Positions 11,411 to 36,992 of a DNA stretch of 64,000 bases are shown here, piece after piece. The DNA is from Saccharopolyspora gloriosae (GTDB lineage: Bacteria > Actinomycetota > Actinomycetes > Mycobacteriales > Pseudonocardiaceae). The stretch's first letter is position 1. Every line of letters starts with the position of its first letter. Made by a program: the position numbers and the translations under genes. A model generated the notes under the pieces. The model did not search any database, had not been told where the DNA came from, and was given only the letters and a program-made list of their open reading frames with translations. The stretch spans positions 4,403,501 to 4,467,500 of the forward strand of contig NZ_JACHIV010000001.1 of NCBI RefSeq assembly GCF_014203325.1, in the 5' to 3' direction.

Positions 11411-11611
11411 AAGCCATGCTTTGGGCTGCGAAGCAAGCCTGCCTTGCGGCGAAGCCGTGCCTGTATGTGCGAAGCACATAGCCCACGTCGAAAAGGTGAC
11501 CACCCGCGGGTTCTCAGCTGCTTCCTCGCGAGGACAGCTTTTTCCCTCGTGGCGGAGCCACTTGGGAAAAAGATCCCGCAGCGAGGAAGCAGCTGAGGTT
11601 CCGCCACCCGA
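11411..11611 (-). repeat. palindromic intergenic element, copy 1 (tail type 2, inverted)
   Basis: The core outer stem is perfect: CTCAGCTGCTTCCTCGC (11513-11529) with GCGAGGAAGCAGCTGAG (11581-11597). The inner hairpin is CTTTTTCCC (11538-11546) / GGGAAAAAG (11564-11572) enclosing GTGGC/GCCAC. The tail on the left carries the hairpin TATGTGC-gaa-GCACATA (11464-11480) and a segment like copy 6. Relative to the other copies the element is inverted. It fills most of the gap between the LLM and HAD genes. Confidence 0.85.
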
Positions 11612-11659
11612 CCCCACGCCCAAAACGACCGGGCGGACAAGAGAGGGGCTAGCGTGACA

Positions 11660-11679
11660 TACCGGCTAGTCGGTACGGT
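11660..11679 (+). promoter_or_regulatory. TetR-type operator overlapping the HAD-kinase-dehydrogenase promoter
   Basis: ACCGGC-TA-GTCGGT (11661-11674) is a palindrome with one mismatch and is nearly the same as the site at 29130-29143 (ACCGAC-CA-GTCGGT). The shared block continues as ACGG(T/A)CC. A -10-like TACGGT (11674-11679) overlaps its right arm and lies 7 nt before ATG 11687, so a bound repressor would block polymerase. The TetR at 26791-27390 is the likely binder (inference). Confidence 0.6.
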
Positions 11680-11686
11680 CCGATGC

Positions 11687-12358
11687 ATGGTGTCCAGCGA
11701 CCCCTCGATCAAAGCGGTGATCTTCGACTACGGCGGGGTGCTCACCACGCAGGGCCGGGTCGCGATCAACGCGTGGACCCGCGCCGAGCGCATCGACCCG
11801 GAGACGTTCTCCGCCGCGCTGAAGGAATGGCTGTCCCGCAAGGCCCCGGCGGGCACGCCGATCCACCGCCTGGAGACGGGCGAGATCTCCGGCGCCGAGT
11901 TCGACCGGCTGCTCGCGGCACGGCTGCGCACCGTCGACGGCGAACCGGTCGAGCCGGACGGCCTGATGGCGCGGATGTTCGCCCACATGCGGCCGGACGA
12001 CGCGATGCACCGGCTGGTCGCCGACCTGCGCGACGCGGGGCTGCGCACGGCGCTGCTGTCGAACAGCTGGGGCAACAACTACCCGTGGGAGACCTTGGAC
12101 GGGCTGTTCGAGCTGTCCGTCATCTCCAGCGAGGTGGGCTTGCGCAAACCGGACCCGCGGATCTACGAGCTCACCCTGGACCGGCTCGGCCTGCGCCCGC
12201 AGGAGGCCGTGTTCGTCGACGACGGCGCGCCGAACATCGAGGCCGCCGAGAAGCTGGGCCTGCGCGGTGTGCTGCACACCGACGCCGCCAAGACCCGCGC
12301 CGAACTCAGCGGACTGCTGCCACGGCTGGGACCCGACATCGCGGAGGAGACCGAATGA
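11687..12358 (+). CDS. HAD-family hydrolase, first gene of a split ACAD10-like operon
   Basis: The 223-residue HAD-fold protein has motif I FDYGGVLT (D14), motif II SNSWG, motif III GLRKPDPRIY (lysine) and motif IV VFVDDGAPNIEAA. It resembles the N-terminal HAD domains of soluble epoxide hydrolase and ACAD10. In motif I the second aspartate (general acid) is replaced by glycine, so ordinary phosphatase activity is doubtful. ATG 11687 is supported by a -10 box 7 nt upstream (leaderless). The stop overlaps the next start as ATGA, so it is coupled to the kinase-like gene. The order HAD, kinase-like, acyl-CoA dehydrogenase equals the domain order of human ACAD10. Confidence 0.82.
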   Translation: MVSSDPSIKAVIFDYGGVLTTQGRVAINAWTRAERIDPETFSAALKEWLSRKAPAGTPIHRLETGEISGAEFDRLLAARLRTVDGEPVEPDGLMARMFAHMRPDDAMHRLVADLRDAGLRTALLSNSWGNNYPWETLDGLFELSVISSEVGLRKPDPRIYELTLDRLGLRPQEAVFVDDGAPNIEAAEKLGLRGVLHTDAAKTRAELSGLLPRLGPDIAEETE

Positions 12359-13383
12359 GCGACGACCTGCCCGGACTCGACCTCACCCGGTTGCGCGAGC
12401 ACCTGGACGCCGAACTGCCCGGACTCATCTCCGGTCCGCTGACGGGGCAGCTCGTGCAGGGCGGGCGGTCGAACCTCACCTACATCGTCGGTGACGGCGC
12501 GCGGCAGTGGGTGGTGCGCCGGCCCCCGCTGGGCCACGTGCTGGCCACCGCGCACGACATGGGCCGCGAGCACCGGGTGATGTCGGCGCTGGCGGGCACC
12601 TCGGTGCCGGTGCCGCGCACGCACCTGATGTGCCAGGACGACGGTGTGCTGGGCGCCCCGTTCTACGTGATGGAGTACGTGCCGGGCACCGTGTACCGCT
12701 CCCCCGAGCTCACCGCGAGCCTCACCGTCGAGCAGCGCCGGGACCTGTCGCTGCGGCTGATCGACGTGCTCGCCGACCTGCACACGCTCGACCCGGAGCA
12801 GGTCGGGCTGGGTGACTTCGGCCGCCCGGACGGGTTCCTGGAACGGCAGGTGCGCCGCTGGAGCAAGCAGCTCGCCGCGTCCCGCAGCCGCGAGCTCGCC
12901 GACATCGACCGGCTCGCCGAACTGCTCGGTGCCCGAGTGCCGACGACGCGGCGCAGCGGCATCGTGCACGGCGACTACCGGCTGGACAACGTGCTGGTCG
13001 GCGAATCGCTGGAGATCAGCGCGGTGCTGGACTGGGAGATGGCCACCCTCGGCGATCCGCTCACCGACGTCGGGTTGCTGGCGGTGTACTGGGAAGGGCT
13101 CGACGGCATCGAGAACAACCCCATCGCCAAGGGCATCGGACCGGAGTACGAGTTCCCGCCGGTGCGCGAGCTGTGGCAGCGCTACGCCGAGCGCAGCGGC
13201 ATCGACCTGTCCGATGTGGAGTGGTACCGGGCGTTCGGCTTCTTCAAGCTCGCGGTCATCAGCGAAGGCATCCACTACCGCTACGCCCACGGCCAGACCG
13301 TCGGCGACGGCTTCGAGCACATCGGGGCGCTGGTCCCGCACCTGGTCTCCCAGGGCCTGTCCGCACTCGACGAGGAGGCATGA
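12355..13383 (+). CDS. phosphotransferase (APH/ACAD10-11 kinase-like)
   Basis: The 342-residue APH-fold kinase has nucleotide-loop residues around [11 protein letters not shown] (35-45), VVRRPP (53-58), the catalytic loop HGDYRLDN (205-212) and the metal site DWE (226-228). It matches the middle domain of ACAD10/11. Related enzymes phosphorylate the hydroxyl of 4-hydroxyacyl-CoAs so that the partner dehydrogenase can eliminate phosphate (known for LvaA in Pseudomonas levulinate catabolism and for ACAD10/11). ATGA overlap upstream and a 1-nt gap downstream to the dehydrogenase gene indicate a tight operon. A role in 4-hydroxy acid use is an inference from this context. Confidence 0.85.
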
Positions 13384-13384
13384 C

Positions 13385-14593
13385 ATGGAGTTCGGCTACG
13401 ACGCCCGCACCGAGGAGTTCCGCGGCAGGCTCGCGGAATTCATGGACGAGCACATCTACCCGGCGGAACCGGTGCTGCACGAGCAGCTCGACGCCGCCGC
13501 GGACCCGTGGGCGCACGCGCCGATCATCGAAGAGCTCAAGGCGAAGGCCAAGGACGCGGGCCTGTGGAACCTGTTCCTGCCCGGTGAGCACGGCGCGGGG
13601 CTGACGAACCTCCAGTACGCGCCGCTCGCGGAGATCATGGGACGCAGCCCGCACCTCGCGCCGGAGGTGTTCAACTGCTCCGCGCCGGACACCGGCAACA
13701 TGGAGGTGCTGACCGAGTTCGGCACCGCGCAGCAGCGGGAGCAGTGGCTGGATCCGCTGCTGGCCGGGGAGATCCGGTCCGCGTTCTGCATGACCGAACC
13801 CGAGGTCGCGTCCTCCGACGCCACCAACATCGGCACCCGCATCGAGCGCGACGGCGACTCCTACGTCATCAACGGCCGCAAGTGGTGGTCGTCCGGGGCG
13901 ATGAGCCCGCGCTGCAAGATCCTCATCGTGATGGGCAAGTCCGACCCGGACGCGCAGCGGCACCGCCAGCAGAGCCAGATCCTGGTTCCCGTCGACACGC
14001 CCGGTGTCCGGATCAAGCGCGGCATGCACGTGTTCGGCTACCACGACGGCGACCACGGCGGGCACGCCGAGATCGTGTTCGACAACGTGCGGGTCCCGGC
14101 CGAGAACATCATCTCCGGGGAAGGCGAAGGCTTCGCCATCGCGCAGGCCCGGCTCGGCCCGGGGCGCATCCACCACTGCATGCGCGCCATCGGCATGGCC
14201 GAACGCGCCTTGGAACTCATGTGCCGCCGCACCCTGCGGCGCACCGCCTTCGGCGGCCCCATCGCCGACCAGGGCGTGGTGCAGCAATGGATCGCCGACG
14301 CGCGCATCAGCATCGAGACGAACCGGCTGCTCACGTTGAAGACGGCGTGGCTGATGGACACCGTCGGCAACAAGGGCGCGCACACGGAGATCCAGTCGAT
14401 CAAGGTGTCGGTGCCGGAGATGGTGACCCGCATCGTGGACCGCGCCATCCAGGCGCACGGCGCGGCCGGCGTCAGCCAGGACACGCCGCTGGCCTCGCTG
14501 TACGCGCACGCCCGCACCCTGCACATCGTGGACGGACCCGACGAAGTGCACCGCAGATCACTAGCCCGCCGCGAACTCAAGCAGTACCGCTGA
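13385..14593 (+). CDS. acyl-CoA dehydrogenase (ACAD10/11-like)
   Basis: The 402-residue flavoprotein has N-terminal helices with [16 protein letters not shown], the FAD/substrate strand [48 protein letters not shown] and the C-terminal [28 protein letters not shown] and KWWSSGA are typical of the ACAD10/11 branch rather than classical medium-chain enzymes. With the kinase it would convert phosphorylated 4-hydroxyacyl-CoA to a form that enters beta-oxidation (inference). It starts 1 nt after the kinase stop. Palindromic element copy 2 follows, separating it from the SDR gene. Confidence 0.88.
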
Positions 14594-14615
14594 AGGATCT
14601 TCACCGTGACCTGCG

Positions 14616-14785
14616 TAGCGGGTCGTTCAGCGGAACCTCAGTCGTCTTCTCGCTGCGGGATCTTTTTCCCAAGTGGCTCCGCCACGAGGGAAAAAGCCGT
14701 CCTCGCGAGAAGACGACTGAGAACCCGCCGGTGGTCTTCTTGCTCTGGCTGGTCACTGCTCAGCGGCTTCGCCGCTGACAGGACG
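14616..14785 (+). repeat. palindromic intergenic element, copy 2 (tail type 1)
   Basis: The outer stem is perfect: CTCAGTCGTCTTCTCGC (14637-14653) with GCGAGAAGACGACTGAG (14705-14721). The inner hairpin runs from CTTTTTCCC (14662-14670) to GGGAAAAAG (14688-14696) around GTGGC-tcc-GCCAC. The tail hairpin is CAGCGGC-ttc-GCCGCTG (14761-14777). Stem sequence differs from copies 1 and 6 on both strands yet stays fully paired. Confidence 0.85.
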
Positions 14786-14861
14786 ACGGGCACTTTGCAA
14801 GACTCGTTAGTTGCGGGCTGCGCCCGCAGAGCTGGAAACTCGACGACGAAGTGAGGGACTC

Positions 14862-15614
14862 ATGCCGCAGAAGACCGCGATCGTCACCGGTGCCGCCCGT
14901 GGGATCGGCGCGGCCACCGCGAAACGGCTCGCCCAGGACGGGTTCGCCGTGGCGGTGATCGACCTCGACGAGCAGGCCTGTTCCGAGACGGTGTCGGCGA
15001 TCGAGTCCGCGGGCGGCAAGGCGCTGGCCGTGGGGGCCGATGTCAGCGACTCCGACCAGGTCACCGCCGCCGTCGAGCGGGTCGCCGCCGAACTCGGCGA
15101 CCCCGTGGCGCTGGTGAACAACGCGGGCGTGCTGCGGGACAACATGCTGTTCAAGATGTCCGACTCCGACTGGGACACCGTGATGTCGGTGCACCTGCGC
15201 GGGGCGTTCCTGATGAGCCGGGCCACCCAGAAGTACATGGTCGAGGCCAAGTGGGGCCGCATCGTGAACCTCTCCAGCACCTCGGCGCTCGGCAACCGCG
15301 GCCAGGCCAACTACTCCACGGCGAAAGCCGGGCTGCAGGGCCTGACGAAGACGCTGGCGATCGAGCTCGGCAAGTTCGGCGTCACCGCCAACGCCATCGC
15401 GCCCGGCTTCATCGCCACCGACATGACGAAGGCGACCGCCGAGCGCGTCGGCGCCTCCTTCGAGGACTTCTCGAAGGCCGCCGTCTCCACCATCCCGGTG
15501 GCCCGCGCCGGCGAACCCGACGACATCGCCAACGCCGCCTCGTTCTTCCTCGACGAGCGCTCCGGCTTCGTCTCCGGCCAGGTCCTCTACGTCGCAGGCG
15601 GCCCCCGGGACTGA
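14862..15614 (+). CDS. SDR oxidoreductase (FabG-like 3-oxoacyl reductase)
   Basis: This 250-residue classical SDR has TGAARGIG (9-16), NNAG (86-89), catalytic S139 in NLSSTS, and Y151/K155 in YSTAK. The C-terminus DERSGFVSGQVLYVAGG is FabG-like. Probably it interconverts 3-hydroxyacyl-CoA and 3-oxoacyl-CoA in the surrounding acyl-CoA pathway. ATG 14862 is chosen for GAGGG 4 nt upstream and because the Rossmann strand starts here. Element copies 2 and 3 flank it on both sides, so whether it shares a transcript with its neighbours is uncertain. Confidence 0.86.
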   Translation: MPQKTAIVTGAARGIGAATAKRLAQDGFAVAVIDLDEQACSETVSAIESAGGKALAVGADVSDSDQVTAAVERVAAELGDPVALVNNAGVLRDNMLFKMSDSDWDTVMSVHLRGAFLMSRATQKYMVEAKWGRIVNLSSTSALGNRGQANYSTAKAGLQGLTKTLAIELGKFGVTANAIAPGFIATDMTKATAERVGASFEDFSKAAVSTIPVARAGEPDDIANAASFFLDERSGFVSGQVLYVAGGPRD

Positions 15615-15645
15615 TGGCTCCTGTCGCCGGGTCTGGTCCGCGTAG

Positions 15646-15811
15646 GGGTCGGGTGGCGGAACCTCAGTCGGCTTCTCGCTGCGGGATCTTTTTCCCGAGT
15701 GGCTCCGCCACGAGGGAAAAAGCCGTCCTCGCGAGAAGACACCTGAGAACCCGCGGCGGTGCCGGTGGGCATGGTGGTCGCCGCTCAGCGGCTTCGCCGC
15801 TGACAAGACGA
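15646..15811 (+). repeat. palindromic intergenic element, copy 3 (tail type 1, imperfect stem)
   Basis: The left arm CTCAGTCGGCTTCTCGC (15663-15679) and right arm GCGAGAAGACACCTGAG (15731-15747) pair with several mismatches in the middle. The inner CTTTTTCCC/GGGAAAAAG hairpin with GTGGC/GCCAC is intact. The tail hairpin CAGCGGC-ttc-GCCGCTG lies at 15786-15802. It occupies most of the gap between the SDR and acyl-CoA dehydrogenase genes. Confidence 0.82.
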
Positions 15812-15892
15812 GGAGCAGGAACGGCGGACGCTTGGAGTCGTTTCCCTGGCAGGGCATGAGCAAATCCGGCTTGAGCACGAAGGAGTGCTGAG

Positions 15893-17071
15893 ATGACCGA
15901 TGCAGCCGAATTGCGTTCGGCGGTGCGGGAATTCCTCGCCGCGCACGATCCCGGGGGTGACCGGCTGGAGTTCCTGCGGGCCCGGTTCGACGCCGGGCTC
16001 GCCTGGGTGAACTACCCGGTCGGGCTCGGCGGCCGGGACGCGCCGCGCGAGTTGCAGACCGTCGTCGACGCGGAGTTCGCCGCCGCCGGAGCACCGGACA
16101 ACGCCCCGTCGCGCAACGGGATCGGGCTCGGCATGGCCGCGCCGACGATCCTGCGCTTCGGCACCGACGAACAGCGCGCCCGCTACCTACGCCCGCTGTG
16201 GACGGGCGAGGAGATCTGGTGCCAGCTGTTCAGCGAACCCGGCGCGGGTTCCGACCTGGCGGCGCTCGCGACCCGCGCGGTGCGCGACGGCGACGACTGG
16301 ATCGTCGAAGGCCAGAAGGTGTGGACCTCGTTCGCGCACAAGGCGAAGTGGGCGATCCTGGTGGCCCGCAGCGACCCGGACGCGCCGAAGCACAAGGGCC
16401 TGTCGTACTTCGTGTGCGACATGACCGATCCGAACGTGGAAGTGCGCCCGCTGCGCCAGATCACCGGTGAAGCCGAGTTCAACGAGGTGTTCCTCAACGG
16501 GGTGCGCATCCCCGATTCCCAGCGGCTCGGCGAGATCGGCCAGGGCTGGCAGGTCGCGATGGGCACCCTGATGAACGAGCGCGTCGCCATCGGCGGCGGC
16601 AACACCGGGCGCGAGTCCGGCATGATCGGCGTGGTCGCCCGGAAATGGCGCGACGACCCCGAGGTCCGGACCCCCGGTGCGCACGACCGGCTGCTGCGGC
16701 TGTGGGTCGAGGCGGAGGCGACCCGCCTCACCGGCCAGCGGCTGCGCCAGCAGCTCGCCGTCGGCACCCCCGGACCGGAAGGGTCCGCGGTGAAGCTGGC
16801 GTTCTCCCGGCTCAACCAGGAGATCTCCGGCTTCGAACTGGAACTGCTCGGCGAGCAGGGCCTCTCCTACGGGGACTGGACGCAGCGCCGGCCCGAGACC
16901 GTCGACTTCACCGGCCGCGACCCCGGTTACCGCTACCTGCGGGCGAAGGGCAACTCCATCGAGGGCGGTACCTCCGAGGTGCTGCGCAACGTGATCGCCG
17001 AGCGGGTGCTGGGGCTGCCGCCGGAAATCCGCACGGACAAGGACGTGCCGTGGAAGGAGCTGCCGCGATGA
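15893..17071 (+). CDS. acyl-CoA dehydrogenase, subunit of a probable heteromeric pair
   Basis: The 392-residue enzyme has WVNYPVGLGGRDAPRE, WCQLFSEPGAGSDLAALAT (FAD/substrate strand), GQKVWTSFAHKA and the C-terminal KGNSIEGGTSEVLRNVIAERVLGLP, which holds the adenine-contacting GGTSE motif. The following gene encodes a second, diverged acyl-CoA dehydrogenase starting at an ATGA overlap. Such coupled pairs in actinobacteria often form alpha2-beta2 enzymes (for example FadE26/27 or FadE28/29 in steroid side-chain oxidation), so a heterotetramer is likely. AAGGAG 7 nt upstream supports the start. The substrate is unknown. Confidence 0.87.
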   Translation: MTDAAELRSAVREFLAAHDPGGDRLEFLRARFDAGLAWVNYPVGLGGRDAPRELQTVVDAEFAAAGAPDNAPSRNGIGLGMAAPTILRFGTDEQRARYLRPLWTGEEIWCQLFSEPGAGSDLAALATRAVRDGDDWIVEGQKVWTSFAHKAKWAILVARSDPDAPKHKGLSYFVCDMTDPNVEVRPLRQITGEAEFNEVFLNGVRIPDSQRLGEIGQGWQVAMGTLMNERVAIGGGNTGRESGMIGVVARKWRDDPEVRTPGAHDRLLRLWVEAEATRLTGQRLRQQLAVGTPGPEGSAVKLAFSRLNQEISGFELELLGEQGLSYGDWTQRRPETVDFTGRDPGYRYLRAKGNSIEGGTSEVLRNVIAERVLGLPPEIRTDKDVPWKELPR

Positions 17072-18165
17072 GCACCGACCTGCTCTACACCGAAGTCGAG
17101 GAGGACTTGCGCGCCGCGGTGCGCCGCGTGCTGCGGGACCGCTGCGAGGTGAGCTCCGTGCTCGCCCGCTGCGAATCCGACGAGCCCTACGACCTGGCGC
17201 TGTGGCGGACGCTGGCCGGCGAACTGGGCGTGGCCGCGCTCGCGGTGCCCGAAGAACTCGGAGGCGGCGGGGCCGGAGTCCGCGAACTCGCCGTGGTCGC
17301 CGAAGAGCTCGGGCGGTCCGTGGCGCCCGTCCCGTTCCTCGGCACCGTGCTCGCCACCGCCGCGCTGACCGCGGCCGGCGCGGCCGAGCCGATCGCCGAG
17401 ATCGGCGCCGGAACGCTGGTGACGACCCTCGCCGTCGGGCTCGCCACCCGGCCGTCCGCGCGGATCGAACCCGCCGTGCGGGTCGACGGCGCGACGCTGA
17501 CCGGTACCGCGACCGCCGTCGTGGACCTGGAGGTCGCCGACCGGGTGCTGGTGCCCGCGACCGGACCGGACGGCACCGGGCTGTACCTGGTGGACACCGC
17601 CGTCACCGGGGTCTCCCGGACTCCGGTGACGCCGCTGGACCTCACGCGGCGGTTCGGCACGCTGGAACTGACCGGAGCGCAGGCCCGGCTGGTCGCGGCC
17701 GACGCGGAACCGGTGCTGCGGCGGGCGTTGCTCACCGCGGCCGGAGTGCTGGCCGCCGAACAGGTCGGCCTCGCCCAGCACAGCCTCGATTCCACTGTGG
17801 AATACGTGCGGACCCGCTACCAGTTCGGCCGCCAGATCGGCTCGTTCCAAGCGGTCAAGCACCGCCTGGCGGACCTGTGGTCCGGGGTGAGCACCGCCCG
17901 AGCCACCTCCCGCAACGCCGCCGACTCCCTGAGCGACGCCGACGCGGAGGCGGAGCTCGCCGTCGCCCTCGCCCAGGCCTACTGCTCCGACCTGGCGGTG
18001 CTGGCCGTGGAGGAATCCCTCCAGCTGCACGGCGGCATCGGCATGACGTGGGAACACCCCATCCACCTCTACCTGGGCCGGGCCAAGAGCGCCCAGCTCA
18101 CCTTCGGCACCGCCGAACACCACCGCGCCCGCATCGCCGAGCTCGTCGACCTGCCGTCGGCCTGA
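17068..18165 (+). CDS. acyl-CoA dehydrogenase, second subunit
   Basis: The 365-residue protein starts inside the stop of the preceding dehydrogenase gene (ATGA). It has VPEELGGGGAGVRELAVVAEELG, TRYQFGRQIGSFQAVKHRLADLW and the C-terminal ESLQLHGGIGMTWEHPIHLYLGRAK. The middle beta domain (ATAVVDLEVADRVLV) is degenerate compared with canonical enzymes, and the canonical TEP-x-x-GSD segment is absent. That fits the partner subunit in alpha2-beta2 dehydrogenases, where only one chain contributes a full FAD or catalytic site. It probably works only together with the 15893 gene product. Confidence 0.85.
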   Translation: MSTDLLYTEVEEDLRAAVRRVLRDRCEVSSVLARCESDEPYDLALWRTLAGELGVAALAVPEELGGGGAGVRELAVVAEELGRSVAPVPFLGTVLATAALTAAGAAEPIAEIGAGTLVTTLAVGLATRPSARIEPAVRVDGATLTGTATAVVDLEVADRVLVPATGPDGTGLYLVDTAVTGVSRTPVTPLDLTRRFGTLELTGAQARLVAADAEPVLRRALLTAAGVLAAEQVGLAQHSLDSTVEYVRTRYQFGRQIGSFQAVKHRLADLWSGVSTARATSRNAADSLSDADAEAELAVALAQAYCSDLAVLAVEESLQLHGGIGMTWEHPIHLYLGRAKSAQLTFGTAEHHRARIAELVDLPSA

Positions 18166-18687: not shown

Positions 18688-18858
18688 CAGCGGGTCGCGT
18701 GGCGGAACCTCAGTGGCTTCCTCGCTGCGGATCTTTTCCCAAGTGGCTCCGCCACGAGGAAAAAAGCCGTCCTCGCGAGGAACCCACTGAGAACCCGCCG
18801 GTGGTCGGCCTGCTCAAGCCGGTCGCTGCTCAGCGGCTCCGCCGCTGACAAGACAACG
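18688..18858 (+). repeat. palindromic intergenic element, copy 4 (tail type 1)
   Basis: The outer arms CTCAGTGGCTTCCTCGC (18709-18725) and GCGAGGAACCCACTGAG (18775-18791) pair with one mismatch. The inner poly-T/poly-A hairpin with GTGGC/GCCAC is slightly shifted (four T, six A). The tail hairpin CAGCGGC-tcc-GCCGCTG lies at 18831-18847. It lies between two convergent genes, where a bidirectional terminator could act. Confidence 0.83.
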
Positions 18859-22369: not shown

Positions 22370-23883
22370 CCGGACTCAGCTTCGCCGGGCTCAGCGGCAT
22401 CATCGTGCTCACCGCCTACGCGGTGATCATGCTGGTCATCGGCTTCTTCGCGGGCAAGGACGCGCAGGCGGGCAAGAGCGTGCGCGGCTACTACCTCGGT
22501 GGCGGCGGGCTCGGCTTCACCGCGCTGTTCTTCACGCTGTACGCGACGCAGTACAGCGGCAACTCCATCGTGGGCTACGCGCCGGAGGCCTACCGGTCCG
22601 GATTCCTGTGGTGGCAGTCGGTTCCGTTCATGATCGCGGTCATCGCCGGGTACCTGCTGTTCGCGCCCCGGCTCTACGTCATCGCCAAGCGCGAAGGCTT
22701 CGTCACGCCGACCGACTGGGTGCGCCACCGCTTCGGCTCGACGAAGCTCTCGGTGCTGGTGGCGCTGCTGATGCTGTGGGGCTTGGCGAACTACCTGCTG
22801 GAGCAGCTGGTCGCGATGGGCCAGGGCATCGCCGGGCTCACCGGGGAGACGGTGCCGTACCAGATCGGCGTGGTCGTGTTCGTGCTCGTCATGCTGATCT
22901 ACTCGTGGACCGGCGGGATGCGCGCGGTGGCGTTCACCGACGTCATGCAGGGCATCGCGCTGCTGATCGGGATCGCGGTGCTGCTCGGCGGCGCGCTGTA
23001 CCTGGTCGACGGCGACGTCGCCGGGGTCACCCGGCACCTGGTGGAGACCGCCCCGGAGAAGGCGGGCGTGCCCGCGCGCGAGGACTCGGTGAACTGGCTG
23101 TCGATGATCGTCATGATCGGACTGGGCGCCGCGGTGTACCCGCACGCCATCCAGCGGATCTACGCAGCGCGTTCCGAACGCACCCTCAAGCGCTCGCTGG
23201 CGATCATGGCGTGGATGCCGCTGGTGACCACCGGAGTCGTGTTCCTCGTCGGCATCATCGGCATCCAGCTGTTCCCCGGCCTGTCCGAGACGGGCTCCGA
23301 GCAGCTCGTCGGCATGATCGCCAACGAGGTCGCGGGCATCAACCTGTTCTTCTACATCACGATGATCCTGCTGTTCGGCGGCGTGATCGCGGCGATCGTG
23401 TCCACAGCGGACTCGGCGCTGCTGAGCTTCTCCGCGGTGATCTCGCGGGACGTCTACGGGCGATACCTGAACCCGCGCGCCTCCGAGTACAAGCAGGTGC
23501 TGGTCGGCAAGGTCGCCGGGATCGTCGCCATCGCGCTGCTGCTGGCGCTGGCCTGGAACCCGCCGAGCACGCTGTACAACATCTTCGTGCTCAAGTTCGA
23601 GCTGATCGTGCAGCTCGCGCCGGTGTTCATCCTCGGCCTGTACTGGCGGCGGATGGCGGCGGGGCCCGCGTTCTGGGGCATGCTCGCCGGTTCCGCGGTG
23701 GCGGGGCTGCTGACCGTGCTCGACCTGGGGCCGTTCTACGGCGTGCCCGGCGGGCTGCTCGGACTCGGCCTCAACGTGGCGATCTGCGCCGTCGGTTCGC
23801 TGCTGCGGCCCGCACCGGTGGAGGACCCCGTCCGGCACGGCCTCGACCTGCGCCCGGTCAGCGGCGGAGCCGCCGCGCAGTGA
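22366..23883 (+). CDS. sodium:solute symporter family protein
   Basis: This 505-residue membrane protein of the SSS family has about 13 hydrophobic segments. Recognisable features are the N-terminal YYLGGGGLGFTALFFTLYATQYSGNSIVGYAPEAY, GFVTPTDWVRHRFG, IYSWTGGMRAVAFTDVMQG and ADSALLSFSAVISRDVYGRYL. Transport of an organic acid is likely, because it sits in the GntR/CoA-transferase operon and starts inside the small subunit's stop codon. Compared with glucose or proline transporters it resembles the carboxylate branch (inference). A bidirectional hairpin follows at 23935. Confidence 0.88.
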   Translation: MTGLSFAGLSGIIVLTAYAVIMLVIGFFAGKDAQAGKSVRGYYLGGGGLGFTALFFTLYATQYSGNSIVGYAPEAYRSGFLWWQSVPFMIAVIAGYLLFAPRLYVIAKREGFVTPTDWVRHRFGSTKLSVLVALLMLWGLANYLLEQLVAMGQGIAGLTGETVPYQIGVVVFVLVMLIYSWTGGMRAVAFTDVMQGIALLIGIAVLLGGALYLVDGDVAGVTRHLVETAPEKAGVPAREDSVNWLSMIVMIGLGAAVYPHAIQRIYAARSERTLKRSLAIMAWMPLVTTGVVFLVGIIGIQLFPGLSETGSEQLVGMIANEVAGINLFFYITMILLFGGVIAAIVSTADSALLSFSAVISRDVYGRYLNPRASEYKQVLVGKVAGIVAIALLLALAWNPPSTLYNIFVLKFELIVQLAPVFILGLYWRRMAAGPAFWGMLAGSAVAGLLTVLDLGPFYGVPGGLLGLGLNVAICAVGSLLRPAPVEDPVRHGLDLRPVSGGAAAQ

Positions 23884-23992: not shown

Positions 23993-25576
23993 TCACAGCC
24001 TGATGCCCATGCCCGGCCCGAGCGGCCAGTCCGCGAAGTAGAACGCGGTGAGGATCAGGGCCCACAGCAACCAGAACGGCACGACGAACGGCGTCATCCG
24101 CGCCACCAGCGTGCCGAGCCCGGCGTTCGGCTCGTAGCGGCGCAGGTAGCCCAAGATGATGATCATGTACGGGTTCAGCGGAGTCATGATCTGCGTCGCC
24201 GAGTCGCCCACCCGGAACGCAGCCTGCGCGAAACCCGGCTCGAAGCCGAGCAGCGCGAACATCGGCACGAACACCGAGGCCATCAGCGTCCACAGGCTCG
24301 ACCCGGAGATGATGAACATGTTCAGCACCGAGGCCAGCACCATGAACCCGAGGAACGCCGGATAACCCGCCAGCCCCAGCGCGGTCAGCAGGTTCGCGCC
24401 GCCCACGGCCAGCGCCGCGCCCAGGTTCGTCCAGTTGAACAGCGCGATGAACTGGCCGAGCATGAACGCCAGCACCAGGAATCCCGTCAGGTCCCGCAAC
24501 GCCCCGGCCATCAGCTTCGGCACGTCCGCCGCACGCGCGACCGCCCCCACCGGCACGCCGAACGCGATGCCGGGCACGAGGAACGCCAGGAATATCAGCG
24601 TCGTCACGGAGTCCAGCAGCGGCGACTCCGGCAGGAACCCGCCGGCGTCGTTGCGCAATGGCGAACCGGGCCACAGCACCAGGACCAGCACCGCCGCGAG
24701 CAGGACGGCCGCCGCGATCCCGGCCCACCGCAGGCCGCGCCGTTCCGCGGTACTGAGGGCGACGGTGAGCCGCCCGCCCTCCGCACCGTCCTCCCGATCG
24801 TCCACATCGGACTCGGGGGCCGCCTCCTCGCGGGGAACACCACCGCGGACCATGCGCGGCTCGATGACCCGGTCGATCAAGAACCCCGCCAGCAGGGCCA
24901 GCAGCACCGAGGACACCACGTTGAAGTAGTAGTTCGACACCGGCGTCACCGTCGCCCCCGGATCCGGCAGGATCGAGGCGACCTCGTTGCTGATCCCGGA
25001 GAACAGCGCGTCGAGGCTCGTCACCACCGGCGCCGTCGAATACCCGGCGCCCGCCGCGGCGAAGCCGCCGAGCAGGCCCGCGACCGGATGCCTGCCCGCG
25101 GCCTTGAACACCATCGCCGCCAACGGCGGCAGGATGATCATCGCGGAGTCGGCCATCACGCTGGAGGAGATGCCGACGAACCCCACCGCGTAGGGCAGCA
25201 CCCAGCGCGGCGCACCGCCGAACGAAGCCCTGATCAACGCCGTGAGCAGCCCGGTCCGCTCCGCCAGCCCGACCCCGAGCATGATCGTGATGACGGTCTC
25301 CAGCGGCGGGAAGCCGATGAAGTTCGCGGGCATCTCGGTGAACAGGAACTCCAGCCCCGCACCGGACAACGCCGCCCGCACCGGGGTGTCCTGCTCCGCG
25401 CCGGGAATCCGCACCGACACCCCGAACGCGGCGACCACCGTGGACACCACGGCGACCAGCAGCAGCAACGAGCCGAACAGCAGGAACGGATCGGGCAGCT
25501 TGTTCCCCGCGCGCTCGACCAGGTTCAGCACCCGGTCCAACCTGCTCTGCTTCGCGGGTGCGGCGGTGTCGGCCAT
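23993..25576 (-). CDS. AbgT-family transporter
   Basis: The 527-residue inner-membrane protein has 10 or more transmembrane segments, with family motifs AGNKLPDPFLLFGSLLLLV at the N-terminus, MADSAMIILPPLAAMVF, GYSTAPVVTSLDALFSGIS, VSNYYFNVVSS and GDSATQIMTPLNPYMIIILGY. AbgT proteins import p-aminobenzoyl-glutamate or, in some bacteria, export sulfonamides. The region between about 240 and 260 is a charged loop (VPREEAAPESDVDDREDG). GCAGGAG 5 nt upstream selects ATG 25576. It lies downstream of the quinone-oxidoreductase gene on the same strand with a 172-nt gap. Confidence 0.88.
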   Translation of the reverse strand: MADTAAPAKQSRLDRVLNLVERAGNKLPDPFLLFGSLLLLVAVVSTVVAAFGVSVRIPGAEQDTPVRAALSGAGLEFLFTEMPANFIGFPPLETVITIMLGVGLAERTGLLTALIRASFGGAPRWVLPYAVGFVGISSSVMADSAMIILPPLAAMVFKAAGRHPVAGLLGGFAAAGAGYSTAPVVTSLDALFSGISNEVASILPDPGATVTPVSNYYFNVVSSVLLALLAGFLIDRVIEPRMVRGGVPREEAAPESDVDDREDGAEGGRLTVALSTAERRGLRWAGIAAAVLLAAVLVLVLWPGSPLRNDAGGFLPESPLLDSVTTLIFLAFLVPGIAFGVPVGAVARAADVPKLMAGALRDLTGFLVLAFMLGQFIALFNWTNLGAALAVGGANLLTALGLAGYPAFLGFMVLASVLNMFIISGSSLWTLMASVFVPMFALLGFEPGFAQAAFRVGDSATQIMTPLNPYMIIILGYLRRYEPNAGLGTLVARMTPFVVPFWLLWALILTAFYFADWPLGPGMGIRL

Positions 25577-27423: not shown

Positions 27424-27556
27424 TATCGGAACCTCAGTGGTCTCCTCGCTGCGGGATCATTTTCCCCCGTGGCCCGGCCACGGGGGACGACGCCGTCCTC
27501 GCGAGGCCCCGCCGGTGGTCATCGTGCTCTGGCCGGTCACCGCTCAGCGGACGGCG
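27424..27556 (+). repeat. palindromic intergenic element, copy 5 (decayed)
   Basis: The left arm CTCAGTGGTCTCCTCGC (27433-27449) is present but the matching right arm is lost after GTCCTCGCGAGG. The inner hairpin is rebuilt as CCCCCGTGGC-ccg-GCCACGGGGG (27464-27486), a perfect 10-bp stem unlike the poly-T/poly-A stem of other copies. The tail keeps GCTCAGCGG but not the full hairpin. Confidence 0.75.
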
Positions 27557-30822: not shown

Positions 30823-30953
30823 CCGCGGCACCCCCGCCGGAAGTCGGCCTCGGCGTTGGCAATTTCGCGAGGAATCGGCGGAGGTTCGCACCAACGCGGC
30901 CGGATTCAAGTCCGCCGGGTGACGTCGTCAGTCGCGGCGTTCGACCCGGCCGT

Positions 30954-31001
30954 GAACAGAAACGCGCGGCACCCCACAACGGGGTGCCGCGCGTTCTGTT
31001 C
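30954..31001. terminator. 21-bp hairpin between RES toxin and terC
   Basis: The stem core AACGCGCGGCACCCC (30961-30975) pairs perfectly with GGGGTGCCGCGCGTT (30981-30995). GAACAG and CTGTTC extend it on both sides with one bulged A. It is very stable and lies between convergent genes, ending in TTCTGTT on the plus strand. Confidence 0.85.
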
Positions 31002-31007
31002 GTCAGG

Positions 31008-32033: not shown

Positions 32034-32038
32034 CGATC

Positions 32039-32073
32039 ACCTCCGGTTCAGGGCATGCGCCGGGACCGGAGGT
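32039..32073 (-). promoter_or_regulatory. SD-sequestering hairpin of the terC riboswitch
   Basis: Read on the minus strand, ACCTCCGGT (32073-32065) is perfectly complementary to ACCGGAGGT (32047-32039), which contains the terC ribosome site. The CCTCC within the first arm is also the 3' strand of the aptamer P1 stem. Pairing is therefore exclusive: with Mn2+ the aptamer holds CCTCC and the ribosome site is free; without it the site is hidden. The complementarity is seen directly; the switching logic is inferred. Confidence 0.65.
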
Positions 32074-32180
32074 CTCTTCCACCGGCGTACCGGTCGACGG
32101 CACCGGGTCCCGCCAGCAGCCTAGAGGCAGCCGACGAGGCCGTGATGACGATGCCGCCGCGAAGGAATACTCCCCTCCAC
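32066..32180 (-). ncRNA. yybP-ykoY manganese riboswitch aptamer upstream of terC
   Basis: On the minus strand the leader begins with GGAGG (32178-32174) overlapping the hallmark GGGGAGTA (32175-32168). It continues through ATCGTCATCACGGCC and closes with GAAGAGACCTCC. GGAGG and CCTCC (32072-32068) form stem P1. The GGGGAGTA loop sequence and the location before a terC gene are both characteristic of this Mn2+-sensing class. Confidence 0.82.
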
Positions 32181-32574
32181 AACGTTGCCAAGATTGTCAC
32201 TTATGCACTGCTTCGAACACCAGCCCGGGTTGATCGACCCGAATGCGCACGGAAGACTACGGCGAGCTACTTGAAGCCACAATGCCCTGGTCAAAGCATC
32301 ACCCGTTACGGGGTACCGGTGCCGCCGTGTGACCAATCCCATCGATCGCACCACACTCACTCGAACGAATGGGCGATCGCGCCCGTCCAGCGTGCGGTTA
32401 TGATCGCCGCGCCCGCACTCGGGGATGCGGCCGTGCACCGAACGACTCGACGATCGCGAGGGTGACGCCGCAGGAGGCGACCGGATTTCTGTTCGGTTGC
32501 TGCTTCATAGCGTCTTCGCCCTGGCCCGCCTCAGGATGAATCCGTTGCCGCCTCTTTCCCCTACTGTCGGCCCC
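32181..32574. other. intergenic region upstream of terC and of the hydrolase-ABC fusion
   Basis: No gene is supported. On the minus strand TTGACC (32294-32289) and GTAGCT (32270-32265), 18 nt apart, form a possible terC promoter about 85 nt upstream of the riboswitch. On the plus strand TACTGT (32562-32567) lies 7 nt before GTG 32575. Confidence 0.35.
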
Positions 32575-35340
32575 GTGCCCCAGCTCCTCCGCCACGGCAG
32601 GCGTTTCCTGCTGCTCATCGTGATCACCGTGCTCCTGGTCACGGGTGTGGCGGCGCTCTGGTCCGGTGAGCGCGAGCAGCCGGCACCACCGGCGCCGCGC
32701 GAAGCCCTCATCGACGTCCAGGACGGCCCCGACGGGCTGGAGCGCATCCAGATCGACGCCACCCTCTACGCGCCCGCCACCACCCCGGCACCGGCGGTGG
32801 TGATCGCGCACGGCATGGGCGGCGACAAGACCGACGCGGACGGGCAGGCGCGGGACCTCGCACGGCGCGGCTTCGCGGTGCTGACGTACTCGGCGCGCGG
32901 ATTCGGCGGGAGCACCGGCCGGATCGCGCTGAACTCCCCGGACTACGAGGTCTCCGACGCCCGCCAGCTCGTGGACTGGCTCGCGCGGCAACCGGAGGTG
33001 CAGCGCGACCGCGACGGCGACCCGCGCGTCGGCGTGACCGGCAGCTCCTACGGCGGCGCGCTGAGCCTGCTGCTGGCGGGAAGCGACGCGCGGGTGGACG
33101 CGATCGCGCCGGTGATGACCTACAACGACCTCGGGCAAGCGCTGCTGCCGAACGCGGCGGGCACCGCGCCGCCGTCCGCCGACACCCCCGCGCACGGCGC
33201 GTTCGGGCCCGACGGCGTGTTCCGGCGCGCCTGGGCCGGGCTGCTGTTCGCCACCGGCGGACCCACCGCGGGCGGCGCCGGAGCCCCGGTGCGAACCGGC
33301 GAGCGGACCGCCACGCCGCCACCCGCCACCTGCGGGAACTTCACCGCCGAGGTGTGCGCCGCCTACAGCGAACTCGCCCGCACGGGTCGCGCGTCGGAGA
33401 AGACCCGCAAGCTGCTGGCATCGGTCTCCCCCAGTTCGAACAACGGCAACATCCGAATCCCGACGCTGCTGGTGCAGGGCACGCAGGACACGCTGTTCGG
33501 CTTGGACCAGGCCGACGCCAACGCCCGCCAGATCGCCGCCGCGGGCGGCGACGTCAGCATGCTGTGGTTCGCCGGCGGCCACGACGGCTCCGCGCCCCAG
33601 GCCCGCGTCCAGGCGCGCATCGCCGACTGGTTCTCCTCCCACCTGCGCGGCGCGGGCGCACCGGGCAACCGCTTCGAGTACGACATCGCCGGAGCCGCGC
33701 GCCGCGACGGCGACGTGCCGGTGCGCACCATGGCCTCCCCCGACTACCCGGGCGTGCGTTCGGATCGCACGCCGCGGTTCTCGCTGGACCTCACCGGCCC
33801 CGCGACCGAGGTGGTCAACCCGCCGGGCGGCTCCCCCGCCGCGCTGAGCTCGCTGCCCGGCTCCCCGGGCCGGAGGGATCGGTCCGAACCGCGGGACCTG
33901 CCGGGGCAGGTCGCGAACTTCCGCACCGAACCGGTGTCCTCGCGGCTGCTGATCTCCGGCGTGCCGCAGACGCGGTTGTCGGTGGCCGCGGTCCCCGGCC
34001 AGCCCACCACCGGCGACGCGGTGCTGTTCGCCAAGCTCTACGACGTCGACCGCGAGGGCCGCAAGGAACTGGTGGGAGACGGCGTCGCCCCGATGCACGT
34101 CACCGGGCTCCGGCCCGGCGGCAGGCCCGTGGAAGTGAACGTGGCGCTGCCGGGCGTGGTGCACTCGCTGGAGACCGGGCACCGCCTGGAGCTCGCGGTG
34201 ACCACCACCGATCAGGCCTACGCGGTGCCGGTCGAATCGGCCGTGCACCGGGTGGACGTGACCGGGGACCGGGCGTTGTCGGTGCCGTCGGTGAAGGCCA
34301 CCGGCATCACCGGCGGCACGTTCCCGACCGCGCCCGTCGCGGGCATCGCCGGAATCCTCGCGCTGCTCGGGCTGACCTGGCTGCTCTCGCGGCTGCGCCG
34401 CCGCTACGCCCGGCCCGAGGAACCGGAGGCGAACGGCTCCCCGCTGGAGATCACCGACCTCACCAAGACCTACCCGCACAAGGTGACCGCCGTCGACGGC
34501 GTGTCGATGCGCGTGGAACGCGGGCAGATCGTCGGACTGCTCGGACCGAACGGCGCCGGCAAGACGACGACGCTGCGCCTGCTGCTGGGACTGCTGCACC
34601 CCACCGCGGGGCAGATCCGCGTCTTCGGGCACCAGGTCGAACCGGGCGCGCCGGTGCTCTCCCGGATCGGTTCGCTCGTCGAATCACCCGGATTCCCGCC
34701 GCACCTGACCGGGCTGGACAGCCTCAAGCACTACTGGGCGGCCACCGGGCGGCCGATGCTGCAGGCGCGGTTCGACGAGGTCGTGCACATCGCCGGCCTC
34801 GGCGAGCACGCCCACCGCCGCACCGCCACGTTCAGCCAAGGCACCCAGCAACGGCTGGCGATCGCGCAGGCCATGCTGGGGCTGCCCGACCTGCTGGTGC
34901 TCGACGAACCGACGAACCGGCTGGACCCGCCGCAGATCCACCAGATGCGCGAGATCCTGCGCCGCTACGCGGCGACCGGGCGGTGCGTGCTGCTGTCGAG
35001 CCACCTGCTGTCCGAAGTGGAGCAGACCTGCACGCACGTGATCGTGATGCACCGCGGCAAGGTCATCACGACCGGCAGCGTGGAGGAGATCGTGTCCGTC
35101 GACGGCCAGGCGACGTTCCGCGTCGACGACCCGGAGCAGGCCGCCACCGCGCTGCGCTCGCTCGAAGGACTGGGCGCGGTGCAGGTCGACGGTGACCTGG
35201 TGCACGCGGACCTCGCCGGGCACAGCCGGTCGATCGCGGTGAACGCGCTGGTCGCCTCCGGTGTGGCGGTCAGCCAGGTCGGGCCGCGCCGCAGGCTCGA
35301 AGACGCCTTCCTGAACCTGGTCGGAGAGGAGCAGCGCTGA
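32575..35340 (+). CDS. S15/X-Pro-peptidase-like hydrolase fused to an ABC ATPase
   Basis: The protein is about 921 residues. A transmembrane anchor (about 9-26) is followed by an alpha/beta-hydrolase domain with IAHGMGG, nucleophile elbow GSSYGG (Ser about 157), Asp in GTQDTLFG and His in GGHDGS. A PepX C-terminal-like beta domain and a second membrane helix (about 588-607) follow. A complete ABC ATPase comes last, with Walker A GPNGAGKTTT (about 655), signature FSQGTQQRL and Walker B LLVLDEPTNRLD. The hydrolase would face outside and the ATPase inside. The next gene (TGATG overlap) encodes the permease. GTG 32575 has a -10 box 7 nt upstream; ATG 32536 is the alternative. Confidence 0.82.
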   Translation: MPQLLRHGRRFLLLIVITVLLVTGVAALWSGEREQPAPPAPREALIDVQDGPDGLERIQIDATLYAPATTPAPAVVIAHGMGGDKTDADGQARDLARRGFAVLTYSARGFGGSTGRIALNSPDYEVSDARQLVDWLARQPEVQRDRDGDPRVGVTGSSYGGALSLLLAGSDARVDAIAPVMTYNDLGQALLPNAAGTAPPSADTPAHGAFGPDGVFRRAWAGLLFATGGPTAGGAGAPVRTGERTATPPPATCGNFTAEVCAAYSELARTGRASEKTRKLLASVSPSSNNGNIRIPTLLVQGTQDTLFGLDQADANARQIAAAGGDVSMLWFAGGHDGSAPQARVQARIADWFSSHLRGAGAPGNRFEYDIAGAARRDGDVPVRTMASPDYPGVRSDRTPRFSLDLTGPATEVVNPPGGSPAALSSLPGSPGRRDRSEPRDLPGQVANFRTEPVSSRLLISGVPQTRLSVAAVPGQPTTGDAVLFAKLYDVDREGRKELVGDGVAPMHVTGLRPGGRPVEVNVALPGVVHSLETGHRLELAVTTTDQAYAVPVESAVHRVDVTGDRALSVPSVKATGITGGTFPTAPVAGIAGILALLGLTWLLSRLRRRYARPEEPEANGSPLEITDLTKTYPHKVTAVDGVSMRVERGQIVGLLGPNGAGKTTTLRLLLGLLHPTAGQIRVFGHQVEPGAPVLSRIGSLVESPGFPPHLTGLDSLKHYWAATGRPMLQARFDEVVHIAGLGEHAHRRTATFSQGTQQRLAIAQAMLGLPDLLVLDEPTNRLDPPQIHQMREILRRYAATGRCVLLSSHLLSEVEQTCTHVIVMHRGKVITTGSVEEIVSVDGQATFRVDDPEQAATALRSLEGLGAVQVDGDLVHADLAGHSRSIAVNALVASGVAVSQVGPRRRLEDAFLNLVGEEQR

Positions 35341-36743
35341 TGGCGGAACGGTCGAACGGCGAATCCGCCGAAGCCCCCGTCCCGGACCCGTGGACCGCGG
35401 CCCCGGAGCACGGCGAGCAGTCGGGACGCGAGACGCAGCCGTTGTCGACGGAATCCGAACGGCACCGGGCGGCGATCGCCCGCGCGCTGGAATCAGGCGG
35501 GTTCCCCGACCTGGACCCGGCGCAGCGGCGACCGCCACCGGTGTGGGGCGCCGACGCGATGCTCGCCGACGACCCGGAACCCGAGGACGAACAGCCGCGC
35601 GAGGACGTGCTCGACGCGGATCGGGCCGACCTACCTGAGCCGGAACCGGCCGACTGGACCTCGCCGACGTGGCAATGCGACGGAACGGAGGCGGCGACCT
35701 CCCCCACCACGACGCGGCCCGCGGCCACCGACGACGTGATCCCCACGAACCGCTCGACCGGCGTCGCCGCCGAACACCCCCGCTTCACCGACACCTCCAC
35801 AGGACGATCCGGAATCGTCGAAACCGGCCAGGTCTCGGTCGCCGAACCCGCGGCGGAAACAGCGGCGGCCCTGCCCGTCAGCGCGCAAGACCCCACCCAG
35901 GCCGACGGCAGCGTGCAGGGCTACCAAGCGGGCCGGACGCTGCCCGTGCGGGTCGAACTCGCCCGCCAACTGGGGCGCAGGCGCACCCGGCTCGCGCTCG
36001 GATTCCTGATGCTGCTGCCGCTGCTGCTGCTCGCCGCGTTCGAGATCGGCGACGACGGATCCACCCCGCGGACCGGAGACCTCGCCGGGATGGCGACCTC
36101 CAGCGGGTTGAACTTCGCCGCGTTCGCCGTGTCGTCCTCGGCCGGATTCCTGCTCGTCCTGGTCGTCGCGTTGTTCTTCGGCGACACCGTGGCCAGCGAA
36201 GCCTCCTGGTCCAGCCTGCGCTACCTGCTCGCGGCGCCCGTGCCGCGCGGCCGGTTGCTGCGGCAGAAAGCGATCGTGGCCGCGCTGCTGTCGCTGCTCG
36301 GGACGGTGCTGCTGCCGACCGTGGCGCTCGCCGTCGGGCTGTTCTGGTACGGGCCCGGCGAACTGGCCACGCCGAACGGCAGCGTGCTCTCGTTCGCCGC
36401 GGGCGCCGTGCACCTGGCGCTGGCGGTGGCGTACCTCGCGGTGCAGCTGAGCTGGGTCGCCGGACTCGCCCTCTGGCTGGGCGTCAGCACGGACGCGCCG
36501 CTGGGCGCGGTGGGCGGCGCGCTGCTGGTCTCGATCCTCTCGCAGATCCTCGACCAGATCTCCGCGCTCGGATCGCTGCGAGCGTTCCTCCCGACGCACT
36601 ACGCGAGCGCCTGGTCCGACCTGCTCGCCGAAGAAGTCGACTGGACCGGCATGGCCAACGGGACTTGCTCAGCGCTGATCTACGCGACGGTGTTCATCAC
36701 GCTCGCCCACTGGCGCTTCCACGGCAAGGACATTACGAGTTGA
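35340..36743 (+). CDS. ABC-2 type permease with long disordered N-terminal tail
   Basis: In this 467-residue protein the first 200 or so residues are acidic, Pro/Thr-rich and probably unstructured. Then come six hydrophobic helices, starting at RRRTRLALGFLMLLPLLLLAAFEI and including FGDTVASEASWSSLRYLLAAPVPRGRLLRQK, the typical ABC-2 coupling segment. It overlaps the hydrolase-ABC fusion stop by one base, so it is that ATPase's membrane partner. The cytoplasmic tail is unusual in length for a permease and may be a regulatory or docking region. The transported substrate is unknown. Element copy 6 follows. Confidence 0.82.
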   Translation: MAERSNGESAEAPVPDPWTAAPEHGEQSGRETQPLSTESERHRAAIARALESGGFPDLDPAQRRPPPVWGADAMLADDPEPEDEQPREDVLDADRADLPEPEPADWTSPTWQCDGTEAATSPTTTRPAATDDVIPTNRSTGVAAEHPRFTDTSTGRSGIVETGQVSVAEPAAETAAALPVSAQDPTQADGSVQGYQAGRTLPVRVELARQLGRRRTRLALGFLMLLPLLLLAAFEIGDDGSTPRTGDLAGMATSSGLNFAAFAVSSSAGFLLVLVVALFFGDTVASEASWSSLRYLLAAPVPRGRLLRQKAIVAALLSLLGTVLLPTVALAVGLFWYGPGELATPNGSVLSFAAGAVHLALAVAYLAVQLSWVAGLALWLGVSTDAPLGAVGGALLVSILSQILDQISALGSLRAFLPTHYASAWSDLLAEEVDWTGMANGTCSALIYATVFITLAHWRFHGKDITS

Positions 36744-36773
36744 TCGGGGTTCTGGGGTCGTTTTGCTCGGGTG

Positions 36774-36992
36774 GTCGGGTGGCGGAACCTCAGTGGCTTC
36801 CTCGCTGCGGGATCTTTTTCCCAAGTGGCTCCGCCACGAGGGAAAAAGCTGTCCTCGCGAGGAAGCCACTGAGAACCCGCGGGTTGTCACCTTTGTGACG
36901 TGGGCTATGCGCTGACGCGCATACAAGCACGGCCTTCGGCCGCAAGGCAGGCTTGCTTCGACCGCCCAAGGCACGGCTTCGCCGCTGGGCGC
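36774..36992 (+). repeat. palindromic intergenic element, copy 6 (tail type 2)
   Basis: The outer stem is perfect: CTCAGTGGCTTCCTCGC (36789-36805) with GCGAGGAAGCCACTGAG (36857-36873). The inner poly-T/poly-A hairpin surrounds GTGGC/GCCAC. The tail contains TATGCGC-tgac-GCGCATA (36906-36923) and CGGCC-ttc-GGCCG, and matches the tail of copy 1 in inverse orientation. It fills the gap between the permease and LysR genes. Confidence 0.85.

Follow-up and report, generated by a model that had tools for sequence, protein, structure and literature searches.

The window analysed here, a 64,000-nucleotide stretch covering positions 4403501-4467500 of the 6.83-Mb single-contig genome of Saccharopolyspora gloriosae (labelled G000), contains six nested palindromes whose stems differ in sequence from copy to copy. 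The initial annotation, which placed them between positions 11411 and 36992, read the differences as paired changes that preserve the fold, and left it open whether selection or copying had preserved it; the locus thus poses the question of how both arms of a stem come to change together, and of what such elements are. Profile hits are found at all six places. The coordinates first assigned locate the elements correctly but mix core and tails, which are separated below (window positions).

11506..11604, minus strand: copy 1 core, with GCGG foot, AAC/AAC loop and a perfect 17-bp outer stem, CTCAGCTGCTTCCTCGC
within 11506..11604, minus strand: copy 1 interior, an inner poly-T/poly-A stem with a GTGGC/GCCAC apex
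11411..11505, minus strand: copy 1 tail, type B, short hairpins in series
14630..14728, plus strand: copy 2 core, perfect outer stem CTCAGTCGTCTTCTCGC
14759..14778, plus strand: copy 2 tail hairpin, type A, CTCAGCGGCTTCGCCGCTGA
15656..15754, plus strand: copy 3 core, outer stem with three mismatches (left arm CTCAGTCGGCTTCTCGC, right arm GCGAGAAGACACCTGAG)
15784..15803, plus strand: copy 3 tail hairpin, type A
18702..18798, plus strand: copy 4 core, one outer-stem mismatch, in a gap between convergent genes
18829..18848, plus strand: copy 4 tail hairpin, type A
27427..27506, plus strand: copy 5, degenerate, the right arm of the outer stem missing and only profile positions 2-81 present
36782..36880, plus strand: copy 6 core, perfect outer stem CTCAGTGGCTTCCTCGC
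36881..36992, plus strand: copy 6 tail, type B, a hairpin array

Independent simple gene calls agree that all six copies are intergenic and that none lies in a divergent gap. The cores of copies 2 and 6 start 36 nt past the stop of called gene 13385-14593 and 38 nt past that of called gene 35340-36743, respectively; copies 1 and 5 lie antisense in tandem gaps, copy 1 relative to both neighbouring genes. The perfect match of right to left arm holds for copies 1, 2 and 6, whose stems had been quoted, but not for copy 4 (one mismatch), copy 3 (three) or copy 5 (arm lost). Small hairpins in arrays form the tails of copies 1 and 6, whereas copies 2-4 have tails of another kind. Folding of copies 2 and 6 gives z values of -7.0 and -6.9, and none of 200 shuffles folds as well.

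The core is a nested hairpin of 99 nt, consisting of a 4-bp foot, an AAC/AAC internal loop, the 17-bp outer stem, a TGCGGGATC/GTCCTCG motif and inner stems. In an alignment restricted to full-length profile hits (A1; 68 sequences, 60 distinct) the GCGG/CCGC foot and AAC/AAC loop show zero variation, the constancy of the foot (68/68) being partly by construction because the profile was seeded with such ends and full-length hits were aligned. Variability in the outer stem sits in its middle pairs; TGCGGGATC and the opposing GTCCTCG are almost invariant; and the inner stems differ strongly between subfamilies, with pairing mostly kept. Read on the sense strand, the inner motif has two conserved G.T pairs. 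Outside the core, the copies listed carry a leader and one of two main tails, type A being the CTCAGCGGCTTCGCCGCTGA hairpin and type B a series of short hairpins.

Intact members of one class measure about 240 bp and combine 16-bp terminal inverted repeats with the 99-nt nested hairpin and a side hairpin. Nineteen units bounded by CCTGTCTTTGATCTTG-like ends measure 63-394 bp; 11 contain the core, eight of them 237-246 bp long, and there are core-less derivatives, of which five of eight are 112-127 bp. The CCTGTCTTTGATCTTG end, allowing one mismatch at most, has 40 matches in G000, and the reversed pattern none. Judged by eye, the ends in two other genomes, G001 and G002, are of another sequence than those of G000 and again complementary: terminal repeats vary among subfamilies while retaining self-complementarity. 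Inspection of the flanks of the 19 bounded units, also by eye, revealed no consistent target duplication.

The family had been counted as six copies, an undercount, since G000 holds 400 first-look candidates, 40 of which were scored, and 24 profile hits in one 400-kb stretch. In the five further genomes of the same genus (G001-G005; Saccharopolyspora in the broad sense), first-look candidates, of which at most 40 were scored per genome, number 368 (G003), 290 (G005), 151 (G004), 68 (G001) and 64 (G002). Profile searches of 400-kb stretches around rpoB gave 24 copies each in G000 and G003 and 10 in G004 (23, 21 and 10 scoring above 30), which extrapolates roughly to 400, 400 and 160 copies per genome. 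In a family-level sample, matches occurred in 43 of 200 genomes and 13 of 46 genera, a count that takes in the window's genome and five others of its genus. When named genomes were scanned with a pattern, at least 120 stretches matched, and the 80 among the matches listed all come from Saccharopolyspora or Halopolyspora. A covariance-model search, of the kind proposed in the initial annotation, found matches in two of 394 genomes of the class, one of them the window's own; with 10 of the thousands of candidates per genome scored, this is weak ground for inferring absence.

A match to a described family was one of two outcomes named at the outset as telling against the annotation. Rfam 15 gave no match at gathering score across the whole window, and a lax threshold applied to 14500-15900 produced seven weak matches far under gathering scores; blastn against plasmid and phage records found no match, and paper searches found nothing on this family. 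Term look-ups in the available text of two REP surveys (PMC3733652, PMC12306157) did not meet Saccharopolyspora, and four actinobacterial names are absent from the available text of an HUH survey (PMC6006769). Within these Rfam, plasmid, phage and paper searches the family is undescribed, as the annotation had supposed; its form is not without precedent, being REP/BIME- and MITE-like in kind.

Placement relative to genes was examined for 64 copies, those of the stretches together with those of the window. Tandem gaps contain 36, convergent gaps 27 and divergent gaps one, for total gap lengths of 152, 30 and 70 kb, and overlap with a called gene never exceeds 20 nt. Copies in tandem gaps are sense in 23 cases and antisense in 13. 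One of the 13 is a copy with an inverted interior, which is sense by its ends. Distances to stop codons could be taken for 59 of the 64, five being dropped for a score of 40 or less or an uncalled neighbour. In 46 of the 59 a gene ends towards the 5' end of the copy, and the core starts 19-49 nt past the stop in 45 of these, including all 26 convergent copies, and 641 nt past it in the other. Among the remaining 13, 12 have their 5' end towards a gene start and their 3' end towards a stop, and one is divergent. Set against uniform placement, with minimal leader and tail lengths assumed, the mean share of the spacer on the left is 0.11 rather than the expected 0.5.

A similar disposition is seen at other loci, in sets of 119, 43 and 37 copies, the first selected via a left-arm pattern: 91, 29 and 32 face a stop, 79, 27 and 28 of these at 15-60 nt; 12, 1 and 2 have the 5' end towards a start and the 3' end towards a stop; divergent copies number 5, 2 and 0; and the remainder are without a called neighbour. 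In three other genera, six copies, each from a different genome, lie 38-56 nt past a stop. Targeting to a replication strand was considered and rejected, convergent gaps of three genomes carrying 15 and 10 copies per strand (p 0.42).

Such placement recalls the REP/BIME elements and REPINs, whose many intergenic palindromic copies likewise lie after genes and near stop codons, according to the available text of the RepRanger paper (PMC12306157). Three 50-kb stretches of E. coli K-12 contain eight REP clusters, seven of them 7-64 nt from the facing stop and one at 426, so that stop-proximal placement is common to REPs and this family; and with 24 extragenic palindromes per 400 kb in G000 the copy density is of REP type. 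The anatomy differs. REP units are described, in the part of PMC3733652 available, as 20-40 bp long with a GTAG/CGTC tag at one end, whereas this family has a 99-nt nested core within a TIR-bounded unit of about 240 bp, and a GCGG/CCGC foot in place of the end tag, a GTAG tag being present only in some leaders and distant from the core foot. It also comprises 33 perfect outer-stem types. REPs are reported to affect translation when less than 16 nt from the stop (PMC12306157, available text), and most cores of this family start beyond that range: all 46 do so in the stop-distance set, and in the first other-loci set four of 91 lie nearer, at 5, 7, 11 and 11 nt.

A position directly past stop codons, often between convergent genes, is also where a family of intrinsic transcription terminators would be found. 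The inner stem, though, reads TTTTTCCC...GGGAAAAA on both strands, with a T run 5' of the hairpin and none after it, making the element unlike an intrinsic terminator. In the window copies this order is seen whichever strand is read, and the terminator reading was rejected on the position of the T run; no T run follows the type A tail hairpins; and in at least two filled sites, inspected by eye, native hairpin terminators are still present downstream. We regard a terminator family as very improbable.

That the copies are numerous, palindromic and close to stop codons, like the REPs of E. coli, could likewise point to REP elements mobilised by a RAYT (Y1 HUH) transposase, whose gene in REP/RAYT systems is usually flanked by REP copies. 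The RAYT domain PF01797, however, has no match in G000, G003, G004 or G005, the four species richest in candidates, in which respect the family departs from REP/RAYT systems; its three matches, confined to G001 and G002 (two of the six genomes of the genus), lie in 3.3-kb loci without any of four element motifs. RAYT mobilisation was rejected on these grounds, and we give it scarcely any credence.

Could the elements instead be plain selfish MITEs, bounded by terminal inverted repeats, moved in trans and without host function, whose position merely marks where insertion is harmless? They resemble bacterial MITEs, including BOX and RUP, in being short and non-coding, with terminal inverted repeats and internal-deletion derivatives (available text of PMC2229807 and PMC3049150). 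The terminal repeats themselves, the core-less derivatives, the range from 64 to 400 first-look candidates between related species, the avoidance of divergent gaps and the three orthologous gaps filled in opposite orientation (below) all speak for this reading. Against it, the ends lead to no autonomous partner: among the 40 CCTGTCTTTGATCTTG matches of G000, the one end type searched, no inward-facing pair is 1-4 kb apart, and of one pair 4.5 kb apart the right end is part of a 238-bp unit. The flanks of the 19 bounded units, read by eye, show no consistent target duplication, and the family differs from MITEs in the variation of its terminal repeats among subfamilies; its sense preference and narrow distance from the stop are unexpected from harmless insertion alone. 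A purely selfish origin is a possibility we take seriously but consider doubtful.

Turnover between genomes was scored per orthologous gene end, with some sites entering twice. Of the 28 ends with a copy in G000, 18 have one in G003 as well, compared with 32 of 274 overall; the corresponding figures are 3/27 and 11/276 for G000 with G004, and 10/37 and 13/297 for G003 with G004. At three convergent sites orthologous copies are in opposite orientation, which suggests that the same gaps have been occupied repeatedly. Exact empty sites were sought between G000, G003 and G004; in those listed of the 45 comparisons, the flanks are too diverged for junctions to be read. G001 and G002 are closer, and 26 copies could be paired via their flanks, copies without a counterpart among the loci compared (e.g. 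L258, L274, L275) falling outside this set. G002 lacks one copy that G001 has, through either insertion or deletion; one is interrupted in G001; and at L302 the core hairpin is absent in G001 with leader and tail kept, in a region that is more diverged (94-97% identity). Present mobility of the family is barely supported.

The other outcome named at the outset as adverse, stem positions that do not covary, was looked for in the 60 distinct copies, which do covary. In the drawn structure 95.9% of 2371 cells are paired and 17 of 40 pairs vary on both sides; cells with changes on both sides number 217 compared with 65.6 in shuffles, none of 500 of which reaches the observed value, and 16-38 in slid structures. 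The RNAalifold consensus agrees, both sides having changed in 15 of its 32 pairs. The fold-preserving paired changes claimed for six copies are thus a property of the family. Preservation is incomplete: of 250 full-length copies, 231 have both arm anchors, and the outer stem is perfect in 127 of these and imperfect in 104. Distinct arm pairs number 114, of which 33 are perfect, 46 have one mismatch, 16 two and 19 more; 30 of the 33 perfect types are one base pair away from another perfect type.

Covariation of this strength, together with conserved loop and bulge motifs, is what would be expected of a functional 3'-UTR RNA in whose stems selection fixes compensatory substitutions of the ordinary kind. 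The excess of sense over antisense copies in tandem gaps (23 to 13, the skew being greater at other loci) fits such an RNA, as does the sharing of place and fold by the six copies of three other genera; the two conserved G.T pairs of the inner motif on the sense strand also point towards selection on RNA. The outer stem points in the opposite direction. Its cells comprise 973 Watson-Crick pairs, 20 A.C and only six G.T, so that wobble intermediates are rare, and single mismatches are frequent (46 of the 114 distinct arm pairs). Among arm pairs with a single mismatch, read on the sense strand, A.C exceeds G.T by 27 to 6, or by 17 to 5 when one recurrent position is removed, counts that treat related arm pairs as independent; counting each position and type once gives 10 to 6. 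The rarity of wobble pairs and the excess of A.C argue against plain selection on RNA; the A.C excess is contrary to selection on the sense RNA, and copying offers no explanation for it either.

Since related copies inflate covariation counts, recent change was examined in the G001/G002 pair, where flanks differ at 342 of 62175 positions (0.55%) and cores at 25 of 2630. Fourteen of the 26 shared cores are identical and 12 differ, paired changes occurring in five of the 26. At L232, L241, L246 and L248 the same apical pair has switched, G-C in one genome facing T-A in the other. Both forms are frequent: of 21 copies in G001, 14 have G-C and 6 T-A, and of 22 in G002, 17 and 5, so exchange between copies could explain these four. 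Two paired changes lie outside the apical pair, one in the inner stem of L262 and one in the outer stem of L248. In G002, CTGTCCTCGTGAG, the derived right arm of L248, occurs only there and in one copy without the partner change in its left arm, which could therefore have been donor of one arm at most; the derived right arm of L262, TCTGAACTGTCC, occurs only at L262. These donor checks used exact 13- and 12-base patterns, which miss donors with other neighbouring bases. From the core rate we estimate that about 0.03 independent complementary double changes would be expected in 26 copies. Unpaired stem changes are present too (e.g. L242, L248, L267).

Two paired changes with no two-arm donor found, arising within 0.55% flank divergence, weigh against compensatory substitution as the whole account, and favour copying, whether by template switching from arm to arm or by exchange between copies, over selection alone. 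They are few, and other explanations are possible: the donor may be lost or mismatching, one arm alone may have been donated (at L248), or two mutations may have combined with selection. Other signs of copying come from the arms themselves. In six arm pairs each arm is found elsewhere in a perfect stem, the two types differing at two or more positions, which suggests exchange between copies. In one of 236 frames (seven unclassed) the interior is inverted between the stems, and this frame, along with the changes at L248 and L262, suggests copying from arm to arm. Template switching has been proposed as a maker of paired stem changes by Monttinen and Loytynoja (2022; available text of PMC8794818), and their template-switch hairpins resemble these stems in having simultaneous paired changes, one arm being copied from the other; their cases are rRNA and microRNA genes, whereas the present system is a repeat that one genome holds in hundreds of copies, among which donors were sought. 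Loop inversion is described in the same text as a footprint of the process. The simplest such footprint here would be an inversion of the apex, and there is none, as against 127 apices in the usual orientation, which counts against template switching. On the choice between selection and copying, then, the donor-less changes, the arms of mixed haplotype and the inverted interior tip the balance towards copying, with selection a possible contributor. A functional RNA shaped by compensatory selection alone is in our judgement unlikely, though by no means negligible.

As read from the sequence, the family is marked by a nested hairpin, terminal repeats, post-stop placement, a sense preference and rarity in divergent gaps. 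The reading we favour, with moderate confidence, is that it is a high-copy, non-autonomous palindromic repeat of Pseudonocardiaceae, REP/BIME-like, present as a 3'-UTR hairpin and acquiring its paired changes mainly by copying. Copies would be transcribed as part of the 3' UTR, where, to judge from their position and sense orientation, the hairpin may mark or protect the mRNA 3' end or separate neighbouring transcripts, and insertions at other places would be purged by selection. Paired stem changes would arise mainly from DNA copying, through template switching between arms and exchange between copies, and selection against broken stems is probably weak. At odds with this reading are the 104 of 231 outer stems that are imperfect and the 13 of 36 tandem copies that are antisense.

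A more specific proposal, which we advance tentatively and think more apt to fail than to hold, is that the stem covariation comes chiefly from template switching between DNA arms and not from selection on RNA, while a trans-acting system or filter sets the sense, post-stop placement. If true, the family would be a natural experiment within single genomes, offering replicates by the hundred with wobble intermediates rare, and strong covariation could arise without RNA function. Covariation is commonly read as strong evidence of a functional RNA. With hundreds of copies, dozens of perfect stem types and near-identical genomes, it can be measured directly how often paired changes occur, which copies donate them and how they differ between strands, and such measurement would allow selection and template copying to be separated. 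The family is further a case of REP-like post-stop placement in actinobacteria, with no RAYT found in the four most copy-rich species, and lets the origin of paired stem changes be tested in a natural setting.

Within the genus, genes for the RAYT-type (Y1 HUH) transposase domain Y1_Tnp (PF01797) turned up only in G001 and G002, a closely related pair of genomes representing the two species with the fewest first-look family candidates:

G002:C1:2447842, Y1_Tnp gene
G002:C1:4665956, Y1_Tnp gene
G001:C30:59796, Y1_Tnp gene

A search for element motifs near these Y1_Tnp genes of G001 and G002 found none. The same two genomes carry a subtype of the element, at loci L252 and L254 and their orthologs, in which a CCCCTTGCCGGTGTGACCG-like sequence replaces the GGGATC motif; pairing of the stems is kept despite the replacement.

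At three convergent sites (G000/G003, G003/G004; G000 being the genome of the window), orthologous gaps hold oppositely oriented copies, each adjoining the other gene's stop.

In type B tails, small hairpin units of the pattern CACGGC-TTCG-GCCGC form arrays that vary between copies, and lone units are also present at a distance from cores. Further type B copies lie outside the window; those within it are:

36881-36992, type B tail
11411-11505, type B tail

The window also contains a 58-nt repeat (17571-17628 and 22986-23043; 78% identity) lying within two called genes, which are perhaps paralogues.

Comparison of G001 with G002 revealed altered copies. The copy at L300:2107 (G001) is broken at GGTAGC relative to L239 (G002); the interrupting sequence resembles the terminus of a putative insertion sequence, IS481-like by eye, and the locus stops shortly past the interruption point. 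L302:2100-2160 (G001) lacks the core hairpin present at L234 (G002) and keeps leader and tail; the core was apparently lost by deletion between GCGG repeats. Short core-less derivatives occur at several loci (L305, L306, L310-L314, G000 24857-24972 and G000 125273-125389), and in most of them the fusion point is CTCAGCGGCT, common to the outer stem and the tail hairpin.
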